Shown here piece by piece: positions 3,430 to 58,683 of a stretch of DNA of 64,000 nucleotides. Numbering within the stretch: position 1 is the first letter of the stretch; every line of letters begins with the position of its first letter. The position numbers and the translations under genes are program-made. The notes under the pieces were generated by a model. That model worked only from the letters and a program-made list of their open reading frames with translations. It was not told the origin of the DNA and did not search any database. This stretch comes from Psychrobium sp. MM17-31 (GTDB taxonomy: Bacteria > Pseudomonadota > Gammaproteobacteria > Enterobacterales > Psychrobiaceae): contig NZ_JAKRGA010000001.1 of assembly GCF_022347785.1 (NCBI RefSeq), positions 744,001 through 808,000 on the forward strand, given 5' to 3'.

Positions 3430-4404
3430 GTGAAAAATATTCTAATTGTCTCGCTAGTAACCTTACTCCTTAGCATCCCTAACTACACATTTGCCAATGA
3501 GAAAAAGCCACCCTATGGTGATGGCGAAATCTTTAAAGGCCAATATGGCAACCTCTATTTTGAAAGCGAAGGTCGCGGCACACCTGTTGTTATTATTAAC
3601 GGTGGCCCAGGTGCTGGCCATAGTGTTTTCTTAGGATGGTTTGAATTTCTAACGAAACAACATTATCAAGTGGTGTATTTTGACGAAACAGGCCGTGGCC
3701 GCGCCACACGTAAAGTGGCAAACAAACCTTTGTCGCCACAAATGGGCGTTAACGATTTAGAAAGCCTAAGGAAGCATCTCAAGGCGGATAAAATCATTAT
3801 CATAGCCCACTCTTATGGCGGTATCCAAGGAATGCAATATGCGCTGCAACACCCTCAACATGTCGAAAAACTCATTATGGTCAATGCTTCTTACGACGCT
3901 CAGAGTCAACAAATGAATATCGACAACGTCAAACGCGTTACCCAGCATCAATATCCTCAGCGCTGGCAACAAGTACTAAAACTTCGCCAACAAGGGATAA
4001 AGTCTAGCGATGAGCGTTACTACGATCTCCTCTCAACAGGTCCAGATATGTACTGGTATAACACCGAAAATCGCAAAAATCTTCGCCTTGTGCGTACCAA
4101 TGACAAACGCGATCGTTTTAACATGCAAGCCTATTTTGACATCGTTGGTGATGACCCAGAATGGACGGTAAACGGTACTTTAAAAGGAATTACTGTTGAA
4201 GAAGAGCTTAAGGGATTTACTATCCCAACGTTATTAATCGCAGGGCGCTTCGATAAAATTACTTCACCGAAAATGGTTCACCGCCTCGCCCAAATGATGA
4301 ATAGTTCAACCACACAGCAAGTCATGTTCGAAAAGAGTGGTCATTGGCCATGGGTAGAAGAAAACGAAAAATTTGAAAAAGTCATTAGCGAGTTTCTTAA
4401 ATAA
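3430..4404 (+). CDS. Secreted alpha/beta hydrolase, proline iminopeptidase-like (S33)
   Basis: Expected to be a periplasmic serine hydrolase/peptidase. I chose GTG at 3430 (324 residues) because GGA lies 7 nt before it and it gives a clean signal peptide (VKNILIVSLVTLLLS, cleavage near TFA); a longer TTG frame from 3373 would bury the signal peptide. The oxyanion motif NGGPGAGH is typical of the prolyl aminopeptidase family. The nucleophile elbow is AHSYGG, the acid is probably in AGRFDK, and the His is in SGHWPW near the C-terminus. Substrate is unknown. It stands alone, divergent from the CadC-like regulator, which may control it. Confidence 0.85.
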   Translation: MKNILIVSLVTLLLSIPNYTFANEKKPPYGDGEIFKGQYGNLYFESEGRGTPVVIINGGPGAGHSVFLGWFEFLTKQHYQVVYFDETGRGRATRKVANKPLSPQMGVNDLESLRKHLKADKIIIIAHSYGGIQGMQYALQHPQHVEKLIMVNASYDAQSQQMNIDNVKRVTQHQYPQRWQQVLKLRQQGIKSSDERYYDLLSTGPDMYWYNTENRKNLRLVRTNDKRDRFNMQAYFDIVGDDPEWTVNGTLKGITVEEELKGFTIPTLLIAGRFDKITSPKMVHRLAQMMNSSTTQQVMFEKSGHWPWVEENEKFEKVISEFLK

Positions 4405-55211: not shown

Positions 55212-56510
55212 CTAGCTAGAAGCCATTAACGCTTCAATTTCATCGACAGTTTTCACTACGTCTTTGGTTAATACTTCGTTGCCGTCTTTAGTGATCAAAA
55301 TATCATCTTCGATACGTACACCGATATTGTGCCATTTAGCATTAATTTCTGGCTTCGCCGCAAAATACAAACCCGGTTCAACCGTTAATGTCATGCCCGG
55401 CTCTAACACACGCGTTCTACCTTTGCCGCCGTAATCACCAACATCGTGCACATCAAGGCCGAGCCAATGACTCAAACCGTGCATGTAAAAGGCGCGATGT
55501 GCGTCTTCTTCGATAAGCTTTTTAACATCGCCGTTTAAAATACCAAGCTCCATCAAGCCTTTGATCATGATTTCAATCGCCACATCATTGGCCATCTTAA
55601 TGGTGTTGCCCGGCACCAGTAATTTAATCGCTTCAATTTGTGCCTTAAGCACTAGCTCATAAATCGCTTTTTGCTCAAGCGTAAACTTGCCGTTGACTGG
55701 AAAAGTACGGGTGATATCTGCTGCATAGCCGTGCAATTCACAGCCCGCATCAATCAGCACTAATTCGTTGTCATTAAGCACTGATTCGTTTTCGGTGTAA
55801 TGCAAAATACAGGCGTTTTCACCGCCGCCAACAATGGTGTTATAGGCGGCAAAGCGCGCGCCGTTCATGGCAAAGTGATGGAGAATTTCAGCTTCTAATT
55901 GATACTCAAACATGCCCGCTTTACATTGCTGCATTGCACGGGTGTGGGCTGCACTTGAAATTTTGGCGGCTTCACGCATCACCTCAAGCTCTTGCGGCTG
56001 TTTAACCAGACGCATTTCATCGCTAATTACTCGTAAATCAGATAAGTTTTGCGGTGCCTGATACTCTGGATTCGCTTTTAACGAGTCCAGTAAATCGTCA
56101 ATAAAGCTATCATTATCATCAAAGAAGTCGTGATAAATGGTGTCACAACCTGCTACAAGTTCAGGCAGCTTTTCAGACAACTCTTCAACAGATAGCGCCT
56201 GGTCGATATCAAATTGCTCTAATGCAGCTGCTTGGCCTAAGCGTCTGCCGTGCCAGATTTCTTGTAGCTCGTCTTTCTCGCGATTAAACAACACGGATTG
56301 CAATTGTTCATCGCGCTTAACCATCACTAACACGGCTTCAGGCTCGGTAAAACCAGTAAAGTAATAAAAGGTGCTATCTTGGCGAAAGTGGTATTCAGTG
56401 TCGTTGCTGCGCGTTTTTTCTTGCGCCGAAAACACAATAGCCGCGCTATTATTGGCAAGTTGTTGCGCCAGCGCTTGGCGGCGCTGGGTAAAAAACGATT
56501 GCTTAAGCAT
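55212..56510 (-). CDS. pepP: Xaa-Pro aminopeptidase P
   Basis: 432 residues (E. coli 441). The C-terminal pita-bread metallopeptidase domain holds its metal ligands: D in VLIDAGCELHGYAADITRTF, H in HGLSHWLGLDVHD, and E in LTVEPGLYF and VRIEDDI. The N-terminal creatinase-like part begins FFTQRRQALAQQL. It removes N-terminal residues before proline in the cytoplasm. The start ATG overlaps the ygfB stop by 1 nt, suggesting coupling. Confidence 0.96.
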   Translation of the reverse strand: MLKQSFFTQRRQALAQQLANNSAAIVFSAQEKTRSNDTEYHFRQDSTFYYFTGFTEPEAVLVMVKRDEQLQSVLFNREKDELQEIWHGRRLGQAAALEQFDIDQALSVEELSEKLPELVAGCDTIYHDFFDDNDSFIDDLLDSLKANPEYQAPQNLSDLRVISDEMRLVKQPQELEVMREAAKISSAAHTRAMQQCKAGMFEYQLEAEILHHFAMNGARFAAYNTIVGGGENACILHYTENESVLNDNELVLIDAGCELHGYAADITRTFPVNGKFTLEQKAIYELVLKAQIEAIKLLVPGNTIKMANDVAIEIMIKGLMELGILNGDVKKLIEEDAHRAFYMHGLSHWLGLDVHDVGDYGGKGRTRVLEPGMTLTVEPGLYFAAKPEINAKWHNIGVRIEDDILITKDGNEVLTKDVVKTVDEIEALMASS

Positions 56511-57085
56511 TAGTGTAAATTCTTCTTATCGTCTGCTGGGGCAGGCTTTTGGCCAAGCTCAGAGAAACACAACATCGCACTAACACGCACGTATTCAGCA
56601 ATTTCTTCAAAGGCGCGTTGCGACTCTTCATCATCTTCAACATCGGTATCTAGCTGGCTAATTTGTCCTAAGTCACCCAATGCTTCGGTTACATCTTTAC
56701 TAAGCTTTTTCTTGCTTTCATTGCCGATAGCAAAACCAGCCATAAAACTTTCCGCCCATTGTGTAAGTGACACAGCTACCGCACTTAACGGCTGATTATC
56801 ATCATTGAGCAGTAGCTTTAATTGATAGTCGCCACCAATAAATTGGTTAACAGCATCATCAAACAGCTCTTTGAGTAATTTTTTAAGCTCCGGTGGCAAT
56901 GCCAAGCCGTCGTTCATTAAGTCGTTAAAGGCACCAGACCACGAATTATCTTCAACGTTAATACCGCCACAAATCAAGCCACAAATAATGCCGTGACATT
57001 CACTTGGTGTAGCGCCAAGTTCACTAGCCGTTAAAACACTTGAAAGTTGCTGCCACGATACGTTTTGATTTGAATTTTGGCTCAT
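56510..57085 (-). CDS. ygfB: UPF0149 family protein YgfB
   Basis: 191 residues, UPF0149 family: ELGATPSECHGIICGLICGG near the N-terminus, central SFMAGFA and C-terminal EIAEYVRVSAMLCFSELG. The function in most bacteria is poorly known; in Pseudomonas YgfB affects beta-lactam resistance through ampDh3. It heads the pepP-ubiH-ubiI operon, as in E. coli. The 6S RNA gene lies divergent from it; zapA, normally between the two in E. coli, is not present here. Confidence 0.94.
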   Translation of the reverse strand: MSQNSNQNVSWQQLSSVLTASELGATPSECHGIICGLICGGINVEDNSWSGAFNDLMNDGLALPPELKKLLKELFDDAVNQFIGGDYQLKLLLNDDNQPLSAVAVSLTQWAESFMAGFAIGNESKKKLSKDVTEALGDLGQISQLDTDVEDDEESQRAFEEIAEYVRVSAMLCFSELGQKPAPADDKKNLH

Positions 57086-57227
57086 GTTGCCACCTACTTT
57101 AAGAACGAATTGGCCTCATTCTATCAGCACTGTAAAAGACATAAAAAGGAAAATAATAAATTCGCCCACAAAACCGACAGTTAGATCAATTTAGGGCGTA
57201 GTTGAGCAAGAAAAGGACAAATAGCCA

Positions 57228-57256
57228 TTAACAACAACGCATTGCTGGCATATACT
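57228..57256 (+). promoter_or_regulatory. Sigma-70 promoter of the 6S RNA gene
   Basis: TTAACA at 57228-57233 and TATACT at 57251-57256, with an ideal 17-bp spacer, point to a start at about 57263, where the 6S sequence begins. Confidence 0.82.
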
Positions 57257-57262
57257 GATTTC

Positions 57263-57440
57263 AATTCCTGGGGTGTTCGTCAGTGTTCAGAGTTCCCGAG
57301 CCAATATACACACCAAGGGAGTTAATTCCTTCGCTATTGCGTAAGCCCGGCATGTACCGGGAAACCTACGGTGATAATTACCTCCCGCCTTGAACCGTCT
57401 GGTTCGAGGGCCAACGTTCACAACGGCACTTTGGGAAGTT
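57263..57440 (+). ncRNA. ssrS: 6S RNA
   Basis: About 178 nt (E. coli 184). It binds sigma-70 RNA polymerase by imitating an open promoter and dampens transcription in stationary phase. The closing stem pairs 57263-57275 (AATTCCTGGGGTG) with 57427-57440 (CACTTTGGGAAGTT) almost perfectly with one bulged G. The 3' part contains the typical CCTTGAACC-GTCT-GGTTCGAGG hairpin (57388-57409) and the segment GAGTTCCCGAGCCAATAT matches the family. Location beside ygfB supports it. The 3' half is repeated downstream, so the true 3' end may differ. Confidence 0.9.
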
Positions 57441-57890
57441 TAATCTTTTCTAAATTATCCAGATAATTACCTCCCGACTTTCGCCTCAAAGAATACCGTC
57501 TAATTCAACAACCAAAATTCACGACAGCATCTTGGGAAGTTTAATCTTTTCTAAATTATCCAGATAATTACCTCCCGACTTACACCTTAAGAATACCGTC
57601 TGGTTCGAGGGCCATCGAATGCAGCGACACTTTGGGAAGTTTAATCTTTTCTAAATTATCCAGATAATTACCTCCCGATTTTCGTGCAGATAAAAACGCT
57701 AGATACAAGGCAAACGCCGAGTGAAGAAAGGCGTGTAGCAGCGCTACATAACTGACTGAGCGAGAAGTTTAACGCCGTAACTAGTGAATTTTAGCAAACG
57801 AAGCCTTAAAGAATACCGTCTGGTTCGACGGCCAATGTCCACAACGGACTTTCTCAGAAACAAAAAGTGGGAAGTTTAATCTTTTCTAAA
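57373..57890 (+). repeat. Tandem array of the 6S RNA 3' half plus 3' flank, four copies
   Basis: Copy 1 (57373-57461) is the 3' part of the functional 6S gene and its flank. Copies 2 (57462-57562), 3 (57563-57662) and 4 (57663-57890, with an insertion) repeat GATAATTACCTCCCG at the start and GGGAAGTTTAATCTTTTC at the end (GGG at 57433, 57534, 57634, 57869). Copies 2-4 share AAGAATACCGTC where copy 1 has TTGAACCGTC, so they derive from one altered copy. The array ends 1 bp before the stop of the next gene. Confidence 0.9.
57681..57803. mobile_element. Short inverted-repeat element (MITE/REP-like) inside the fourth 6S half-copy
   Basis: About 123 bp inserted between CTCCCGA and CCTTAAAGAATACC of copy 4. 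Ends are imperfect inverted repeats: TTCGT..TAAAA..CTAG at the left and CTAG..TTTTA..ACGAA at the right. It contains a small GTAGC-AGC-GCTAC hairpin and no coding capacity. Size and structure suit a non-autonomous palindromic element, probably present elsewhere in the genome. Confidence 0.55.
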
Positions 57891-57891
57891 G

Positions 57892-58683
57892 CTACTTTAT
57901 CAATGCGTGACTCGGTGCGAATTTTTTAACTAATTTTTCCTGACTGCCATTTTCTTTTAAAACTTTAATCGCGCTATTTACTTTATTGACGATTTCTAAA
58001 CCGCGATCGGCAGTCGTTGCACTCACCATAGCGACAGATTTGTGAAATGAAAGATGAGGAACTAGCACGATGTCTTTCACTAAAGGGTCGTTAATCGATT
58101 TTAAATAATCCACTTCTGCAGAGTGTAAAATCACGCCATCAATGTGCTTCTGATTCAAATTTCGCAACAATCCTTTGGCATTTTTTTGCGTCATTACTTT
58201 GCCATCGGCTCCCGGAGATACGCGAAGTTTTTCCATCTCAGGTGTTCTGATATCGTGAAAATTAAACCCAAATCGGAATCCTGCTCTAACAACCTCTGTC
58301 AGCGATTTTAGTTCTCCAACACTTGGATTTGATTTTAAGCGGTAAAAGCCCATGGGATCTTTTCGATAAACATCGGTTAAAACGTAAACTCCTAAATCAG
58401 CACCGCTTGGAACAGTACCAAGTAGCAAATCGAGCTTACCGTCAGCGAGTTCCTTAATCTGACGCATCCATGGTATATATCTGAAATTAACTTCACAGCC
58501 GAGTTCTTTACCAATTAGCTTAACGTATTCAATATCGAATCCTGTAGGTTGGCCAGAACGCTTCTTGTATTGATAGCTTGGCCTTTCCATCCAACCAACT
58601 TTAAGCTCACACTTTTCAGTTGATTCAGCGTTGGCACTTGATGCGATTGAAAAAAATAAAGCAATACCTAATAAAAATTTCAT
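57892..58683 (-). CDS. Periplasmic amino-acid-type solute-binding protein (SBP_bac_3), tandem paralog B
   Basis: 263 residues: signal peptide (MKFLLGIALFFSIAS, cleavage near ANAE), then KCELKVGWMERPSYQYKKRSGQPTGFDIEYVKLIGKE, the family-3 binding fold. It is a clear paralog of the gene just upstream, overlapping it by 1 nt (TAATG). No permease or ATPase genes are near. Its ligand is unknown; aromatic MERPSYQYKKRSG-type motifs recur in this orphan group. Its 3' end abuts the 6S half-copy array. Confidence 0.87.
   Translation of the reverse strand: MKFLLGIALFFSIASSANAESTEKCELKVGWMERPSYQYKKRSGQPTGFDIEYVKLIGKELGCEVNFRYIPWMRQIKELADGKLDLLLGTVPSGADLGVYVLTDVYRKDPMGFYRLKSNPSVGELKSLTEVVRAGFRFGFNFHDIRTPEMEKLRVSPGADGKVMTQKNAKGLLRNLNQKHIDGVILHSAEVDYLKSINDPLVKDIVLVPHLSFHKSVAMVSATTADRGLEIVNKVNSAIKVLKENGSQEKLVKKFAPSHALIK

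Follow-up and report, generated by a model that had tools for sequence, protein, structure and literature searches.

Tandem copies of the 6S RNA 3' end directly downstream of ssrS in Psychrobium sp. MM17-31 and in genomes of two other families of the order

In the marine bacterium Psychrobium sp. MM17-31, the 6S RNA gene ssrS is followed, head to tail and in the same orientation, by three further copies of the 3' third of 6S RNA together with 20 nt of its flank. This array lies within a 64,000-nt stretch of contig NZ_JAKRGA010000001.1 (hereafter the window, meaning the whole stretch that was analysed), and arrays of this type also adjoin ssrS in two other families of the order. 6S RNA is a regulator of RNA polymerase and is among the best-studied bacterial regulatory RNAs. 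Judged from the sequences, the chances are about even that the array represents an inherited tandem stack of 6S 3'-end modules, whose likeliest role would be serial termination or 3'-end formation for ssrS read-through.

The complete ssrS gene was located at 57262..57441 (+) by a covariance-model search with RF00013, a check that an earlier note on this DNA had proposed. It scored 114.5 bits over model positions 1-187 (gathering score, 46.4 bits) and was the single match in the window as well as the sole match in the genome. A consensus scan placed the ssrS promoter (TTAACA, 17 nt, TATACT) at 57228..57256 (+). This is the sole promoter-like site across 57200-57960; since shuffled sequences average 1.2 such sites, it is the position and context of the promoter that count, not the match alone. 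The upstream neighbour of ssrS is a ygfB-type gene (UPF0149) on the minus strand (56510..57085; PF03695, 1.1e-36), while a minus-strand gene for a family 3 solute-binding protein (57892..58683; PF00497, 1.7e-17) is convergent with the array.

The repeated part of 6S RNA comprises the last 69 of its 180 nt, and the repeated segment begins with the 3' strand of the internal stem and continues for 20 nt beyond the 6S 3' end. A unit would in this way combine two parts of 6S, namely the central bubble's 3' side and the 3' strand of the closing stem, with a flank bearing a putative 3'-end signal. Unit 1 (57373..57461, +) consists of the final 69 nt of 6S and the 20-nt U-rich 3' flank. Unit 2 (57462..57562, +) has an array-type head, a strongly altered core and a retained 3' arm, and unit 3 (57563..57662, +) likewise has an array-type head and retains the 3' arm. 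Unit 4 (57663..57891, +) has a head split by an insert, carries a hairpin-forming addition of about 15 nt in front of GGGAAGTTT, and has lost its pairing with the 5' arm. The unit heads (GATAATTACCTCCC) start at 57373, 57462, 57563 and 57663, and the tail block GGGAAGTTTAATCTTTTCTAAA ends at 57454, 57555, 57655 and 57890. Unit 4 is 229 bp long because of the 119-bp insert in its head (57684..57802 as aligned, +), the other repeat units being about 100 bp, and the stretch covering the insert region (57678-57815) matches one place in its own genome. The palindrome AATTATC-CA-GATAATT occurs at all three unit junctions, namely at 57453..57468 (+) between units 1 and 2, at 57554-57569 and at 57654-57669. 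TRF reported a 100-bp period over 57394-57678 (score 381), and comparison of the last 85 nt of 6S with its own downstream kilobase gave a score of 72, whereas 200 shuffles reached 23 at most (z 30.8).

The heads of units 2-4 share a change that breaks the apical hairpin (for example, CTCCCGACTTACACCTTAAGAATACC in place of CTCCCGCCTTGAACC), and these copies keep the GGGAAGTTT arm of the closing stem. Both features had been described in the earlier note, as had the common orientation and end-to-end fusion of the copies, and the unit alignment bore them out. Other parts of that description needed adjustment. The 3' end of 6S is indeed amplified, but the repeated part is nearer a third of the RNA than the half that had been claimed; a unit length of about 100 bp is right for units 2 and 3 and wrong for unit 4; and the proposed count of four copies agrees with the four units, but one of these is the 3' end of the 6S gene itself. 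Considered as independent 6S genes, units 2-4 gave no RF00013 match and have no 5' arm, and the array holds no promoter-like site. A mobile element or dispersed REP-like repeat was also rejected as an explanation, the array query matching one place in its own genome (E <= 0.001).

Nine genomes of the window's family, with one 6S gene each, were examined for such arrays, and a tenth (L031, record CAKZQF010000214) was assigned to the Psychrobium clade by its YgfB protein alone, which is 63% identical. An array adjoins ssrS in four of these ten genomes (G000, which contains the window, G006, G007 and L031), and none was present behind ssrS in the six others. The contig of G006 stops within the array. 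The L031 array (6S core at about 3637-3690, minus strand) has a shorter unit of about 77 bp and a different start point in 6S, and is probably independent or strongly remodelled.

A sequence model (R1) that covers 55 positions of the 6S tail was then scanned over 394 genomes of the order. It matched in 312 of them, with more than one match in 20, and the extra matches adjoined ssrS only in the window's family and two other families. Extra matches in G001, G055, G157, G089, G239, G334, G215 and G245 were not adjacent, being far away, on a different contig or on the opposite strand, and were discarded. As R1 was trained on arrays and missed G126, G399, G486 and G490, the array counts are lower bounds. 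In a second genus (g10, another family), six of seven species carry an array, five of them detected by R1 and G126 by reading the sequence. In a third genus (g6, a third family), which we take to be Shewanella-like, arrays were found in at least 13 of 129 genomes: nine and G409 (on two contigs) by R1, G490 by its head pattern, and G399 and G486 by self-comparison. The array was not detected in the remaining 116 and is therefore dispensable.

Self-comparison of ssrS loci was positive in three of nine loci of the Psychrobium clade, in three of 27 from other families or genera of the order, all three belonging to g10, and in ten of 60 further loci, some of which had been picked for their extra R1 matches (two more loci had no clear 6S core). 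One of these ten, in G390, is a complete second 6S gene. This gene follows the first in tandem at a distance of 318 bp, before a gene that resembles ygfA by eye (L182, G390:C8:75940-77500). When the same self-comparison was applied to tmRNA as a control, none of 25 loci, of which 19 came from genomes with an array, had a downstream 3' copy; the set excludes three truncated loci as well as G007, which gave no tmRNA match above the cut-off. The amplification is therefore not shared by all stable-RNA 3' ends in these genomes, with tmRNA as the one class that the control covered. General instability of such 3' ends was rejected on the same count, yet E. coli tyrTV shows that such arrays do occur elsewhere.

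The array copies proved to be two-faced. In each of the 43 copies compared, drawn from 20 genomes, the head block was nearer to a copy from a different genome of the same group than to the 6S of its host (7/7, 23/23 and 13/13 copies from 3, 12 and 5 genomes by group, in a set without L031, whose unit starts elsewhere, G139 and G409). For the tail plus 15 nt of flank, the own 6S was the unique best match in 6/9, 15/23 and 9/13 copies, where naive chance would give about 1/4, 1/12 and 1/5 (one G006 copy cut by the contig end was dropped). These counts overstate tail conservation, since the copies used for them, as for the arm-duplex energies and the terminator, G/C and head counts, were chosen by their tail motif, with decayed-tail copies (G126, G139, G401, G479) left out. 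Within the window, units 2 and 3 show 0/49 differences in the tail-to-head block and 18/55 in the core (p 2e-6). In G006, the functional 6S gene bears a bubble variant, CCATAGATTCACA, which is common to its own array copies and absent from nine other 6S genes compared.

The shared array-specific heads point to a segmental duplication of the ssrS 3' end that would have preceded the split of the array-bearing species in each genus; transfer of the array between species may be an alternative source of these heads. Unequal crossing-over or gene conversion in the tails would allow the array to grow, to shrink and to swap tails with the functional gene. Head crossovers would harm 6S and be lost, so that the heads would stay array-specific. 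An old and inherited array, the tails of which exchange with 6S, appears moderately well supported by these patterns. A recent duplication would likewise leave tails that resemble the own 6S, but the shared heads speak against it. The earlier note had regarded absence of the array from relatives as one mark of a recent neutral duplication; some relatives do carry the array, with shared array-specific heads. The history outlined here requires no array function. In the third genus, the arrays of G402 (L175) and G486 (L144) are related and share their terminator-linker types, but these follow one another in a different order, which gives the impression of shuffled units.

As to the 3'-end signals, an intrinsic terminator was found in the third genus behind 28 of 35 arms from 12 genomes (9/12 gene arms and 19/23 array arms; G409 not included), versus 4 of 700 shuffles. 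The stems vary between units of one array (G402, G486) and the terminator persists. None of the four arms of G290 has a terminator, and the three other misses (one in G479 and two in G490) resemble weaker terminators by eye. An intrinsic terminator, defined as a hairpin with a T-run, was found behind 0 of 13 arms in the Psychrobium clade, the window included, and 0 of 18 in the second genus. The linkers of these two groups are C-rich and G-poor, 21 of 23 falling among the highest 5% of 60-nt windows when these are ranked for C over G by a crude measure (the best of six windows). Those of the window rank in the top 1.3-10.6%. Here the array may add nothing, because C-rich 6S flanks were also observed in the six array-free Psychrobium relatives (0.13-0.30 over a longer stretch). 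Compared with their own 6S, the copies lost 35 and gained 5 G in the Psychrobium clade (C, 19 and 19) and lost 50 and gained 11 G in the second genus (C, 30 and 24), and no G-over-C loss bias was seen in the third genus (G 30/22, C 50/28); neither copies nor substitutions are independent in these counts. The G loss is also explicable as simple hairpin breakage. In the third genus it is the intrinsic terminators that would end read-through; in Psychrobium and the second genus this would fall to the C-rich, G-poor linkers, the composition of which probably suits Rho-type termination.

E. coli tyrTV/rttR (RtT) has the layout of the window array: directly behind a stable RNA gene come same-orientation copies, in tandem, of the gene's 3' end and flank. 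In NC_000913.3, exact repeats of the final 19 nt of tRNA-Tyr are found behind tyrV at +160, +338 and +516. This array has a 178-bp period, 3.1 copies and a maximum C-over-G of 0.33 per 60 nt, and the ncRNA rttR is annotated in its first unit, right behind the tRNA. It differs from the window array in that it belongs to a tRNA and not to 6S, in that its 178-bp units contain 19 nt of the RNA versus 69 nt in about 100 bp, in the near identity of the tyrT units (95%), and in the annotation of a small gene, tpr, in the first unit. Rho-dependent termination takes place within the tyrT repeats. Tandem intrinsic terminators, for their part, occur behind highly transcribed genes, and most third-genus units are alike in ending in a terminator. 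Unlike plain tandem terminators, each third-genus terminator travels with a 6S tail, and the Psychrobium units have no terminator.

RtT RNAs are described as being set free from the transcripts of tRNA operons (PMC4986893), and rtT-like members are reported in a cluster of candidate attenuators (PMC2965389). A tandem arrangement of two 6S genes is described for the Bacillus cereus group (PMC7726162), and G390 likewise has a complete second 6S gene; those of the B. cereus group are whole genes, each with a 5' arm, whereas the window units have neither a 5' arm nor a promoter-like site. The Bordetella BRE repeats (PMC3110155) came from a small-RNA screen and also vary in tandem copy number between genomes, but they occupy several loci, and a relation to 6S was not found in the available text of that paper. 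No partial-copy array behind ssrS was found in a literature search made mainly at the level of titles and abstract beginnings, with most subscription papers outside it. As far as searched, the architecture is new for 6S and already known on a tRNA, so the statement in the earlier note that no case had been described holds for 6S alone.

A neutral array, in which the ssrS 3' end is prone to tandem duplication and the copies, kept by chance and by concerted evolution with the 6S gene, are merely trimmed off precursors, is a serious contender, although a less probable one than the termination stack. It accounts for the patchy occurrence (at least 13/129 in the third genus) and for the decaying arms of several copies; unequal tail exchange with selection on the 6S head alone would yield the two-faced pattern, and, even without selection, a tail that has been functional would keep that appearance for some time. 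It has more difficulty with the terminators of differing stems behind most third-genus arms, with a G-loss bias confined to the groups without terminators, with heads that are recognisable across species and with the presence of the array in 6/7 species of the second genus. An assembly artefact or collapsed repeat has practically no likelihood left. The array ends are contig ends in G006, G409 and G399, and arrays do disturb assemblies, but the window array lies within a 1-Mb contig, with distinguishable units, and arrays are also found in the single-contig genomes G232, G346, G422, G479, G017 and G061; their occurrence in independent genomes ruled this explanation out.

It had also been suggested in the earlier note that the copies offer alternative 6S folds. 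In the window, the predicted duplex energy of the 5' arm is -18.8 kcal/mol with its own arm, -21.8 with copy 2, -21.6 with copy 3 and -7.0 with copy 4, using a 26-nt arm that the inserted hairpin cuts in the window, G006 and G007. This energy is kept or improved in most third-genus copies as well, and in the equilibrium pairing of 18 array transcripts the 5' arm pairs mainly with a later arm in 15, with the first arm in two and hardly at all in one. Such values would favour a model in which read-through 6S refolds on arm 2, 3 or later and gives longer isoforms with altered polymerase binding or release. Nevertheless, we consider this model unlikely. Arms are weak or lost in window copy 4 and in copies of G006, G007, L031, G112, G126 and G017, most later arms of the third genus lie behind terminators, and co-transcriptional folding and 3' trimming would favour the first arm and normal 6S. 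Neither kind of arm is used in the minimum-energy fold predicted for the whole window transcript, which lies 5.6 kcal/mol lower than the fold in which the own closing stem is enforced. The 31 distinct copies gave an apparent sign that arm pairing is under selection (mean mid-P 0.33; KS p 4e-4), which was rejected, as the copies are non-independent, indels inflate the substitution count and retained ancestral alleles mimic compensation. Later-arm pairing is thermodynamically possible, as had been proposed, except in copy 4; retained ancestral sequence and exchange account for what remains of it, and an array-based regulatory switch of 6S is not supported.

In the minimum-energy fold, the 5' end of 6S (57264-57281) is predicted to pair with the head of copy 3 (57577-57594), which makes this head a possible antisense or decoy element. 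Together with the tyrTV/rttR layout and its annotated ncRNA directly behind the tRNA, this pairing would be in keeping with units processed into separate small RNAs, decoys or sponges, by analogy with rttR in E. coli; no promoter-like site was found within the array, and such a role seems improbable, even more so than refolding on later arms. Similar CCTTAAGAAT-type heads were noted in other copies of G000 and G006.

A further and more tentative proposal can be made, which we rate below the neutral alternative: in several marine gammaproteobacterial lineages, a hereditary stack of 3'-end cassettes might both terminate ssrS read-through and recombine with the functional gene, repeatedly replacing the arm of the 6S closing stem from the copies that lie downstream of it. 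The recombination mechanism, the use of Rho and any effect on 6S are elements that we infer. Were the proposal true, the two strands of the 6S closing stem would evolve under different regimes. The recurrence in three families, the tRNA parallel in E. coli and the 0/25 tmRNA loci suggest a little-noticed form of stable-RNA gene organisation. The arrays would provide a natural test of 6S 3'-end formation and of whether read-through is regulated, and also of the evolution of a structured RNA in which a tandem array exchanges sequence with one strand of the closing stem.

The surroundings of ssrS vary among the relatives. The ygfA gene adjoins ssrS in four of them (G003, G004, G005 and G008) and is about 8 kb away in the window genome, where the gap, which runs from 57892 to beyond 64000, holds genes for two solute-binding proteins, one winged-helix/TPR regulator and one GH43 enzyme, as well as what is by eye an amylase-like ORF. 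This displacement had raised the idea of an att-site scar left by an integrative element, which was rejected when a distal copy of the 6S end was not found. In G002, the ssrS-ygfA gap holds an ORF that resembles a TonB receptor by eye. The G007 array (L073 1-3574 = G007:C106:12000-15573), located between ssrS and ygfA, runs into what appears by eye to be the remnant of a solute-binding-protein gene, whereas the window array precedes intact genes of this type. Finally, two terminator-like sites were observed on the minus strand of the window at 57734-57748 and 57815-57832, versus 0.7 expected in shuffles; they face the convergent solute-binding-protein transcript, and one of them sits within the unit 4 insert.
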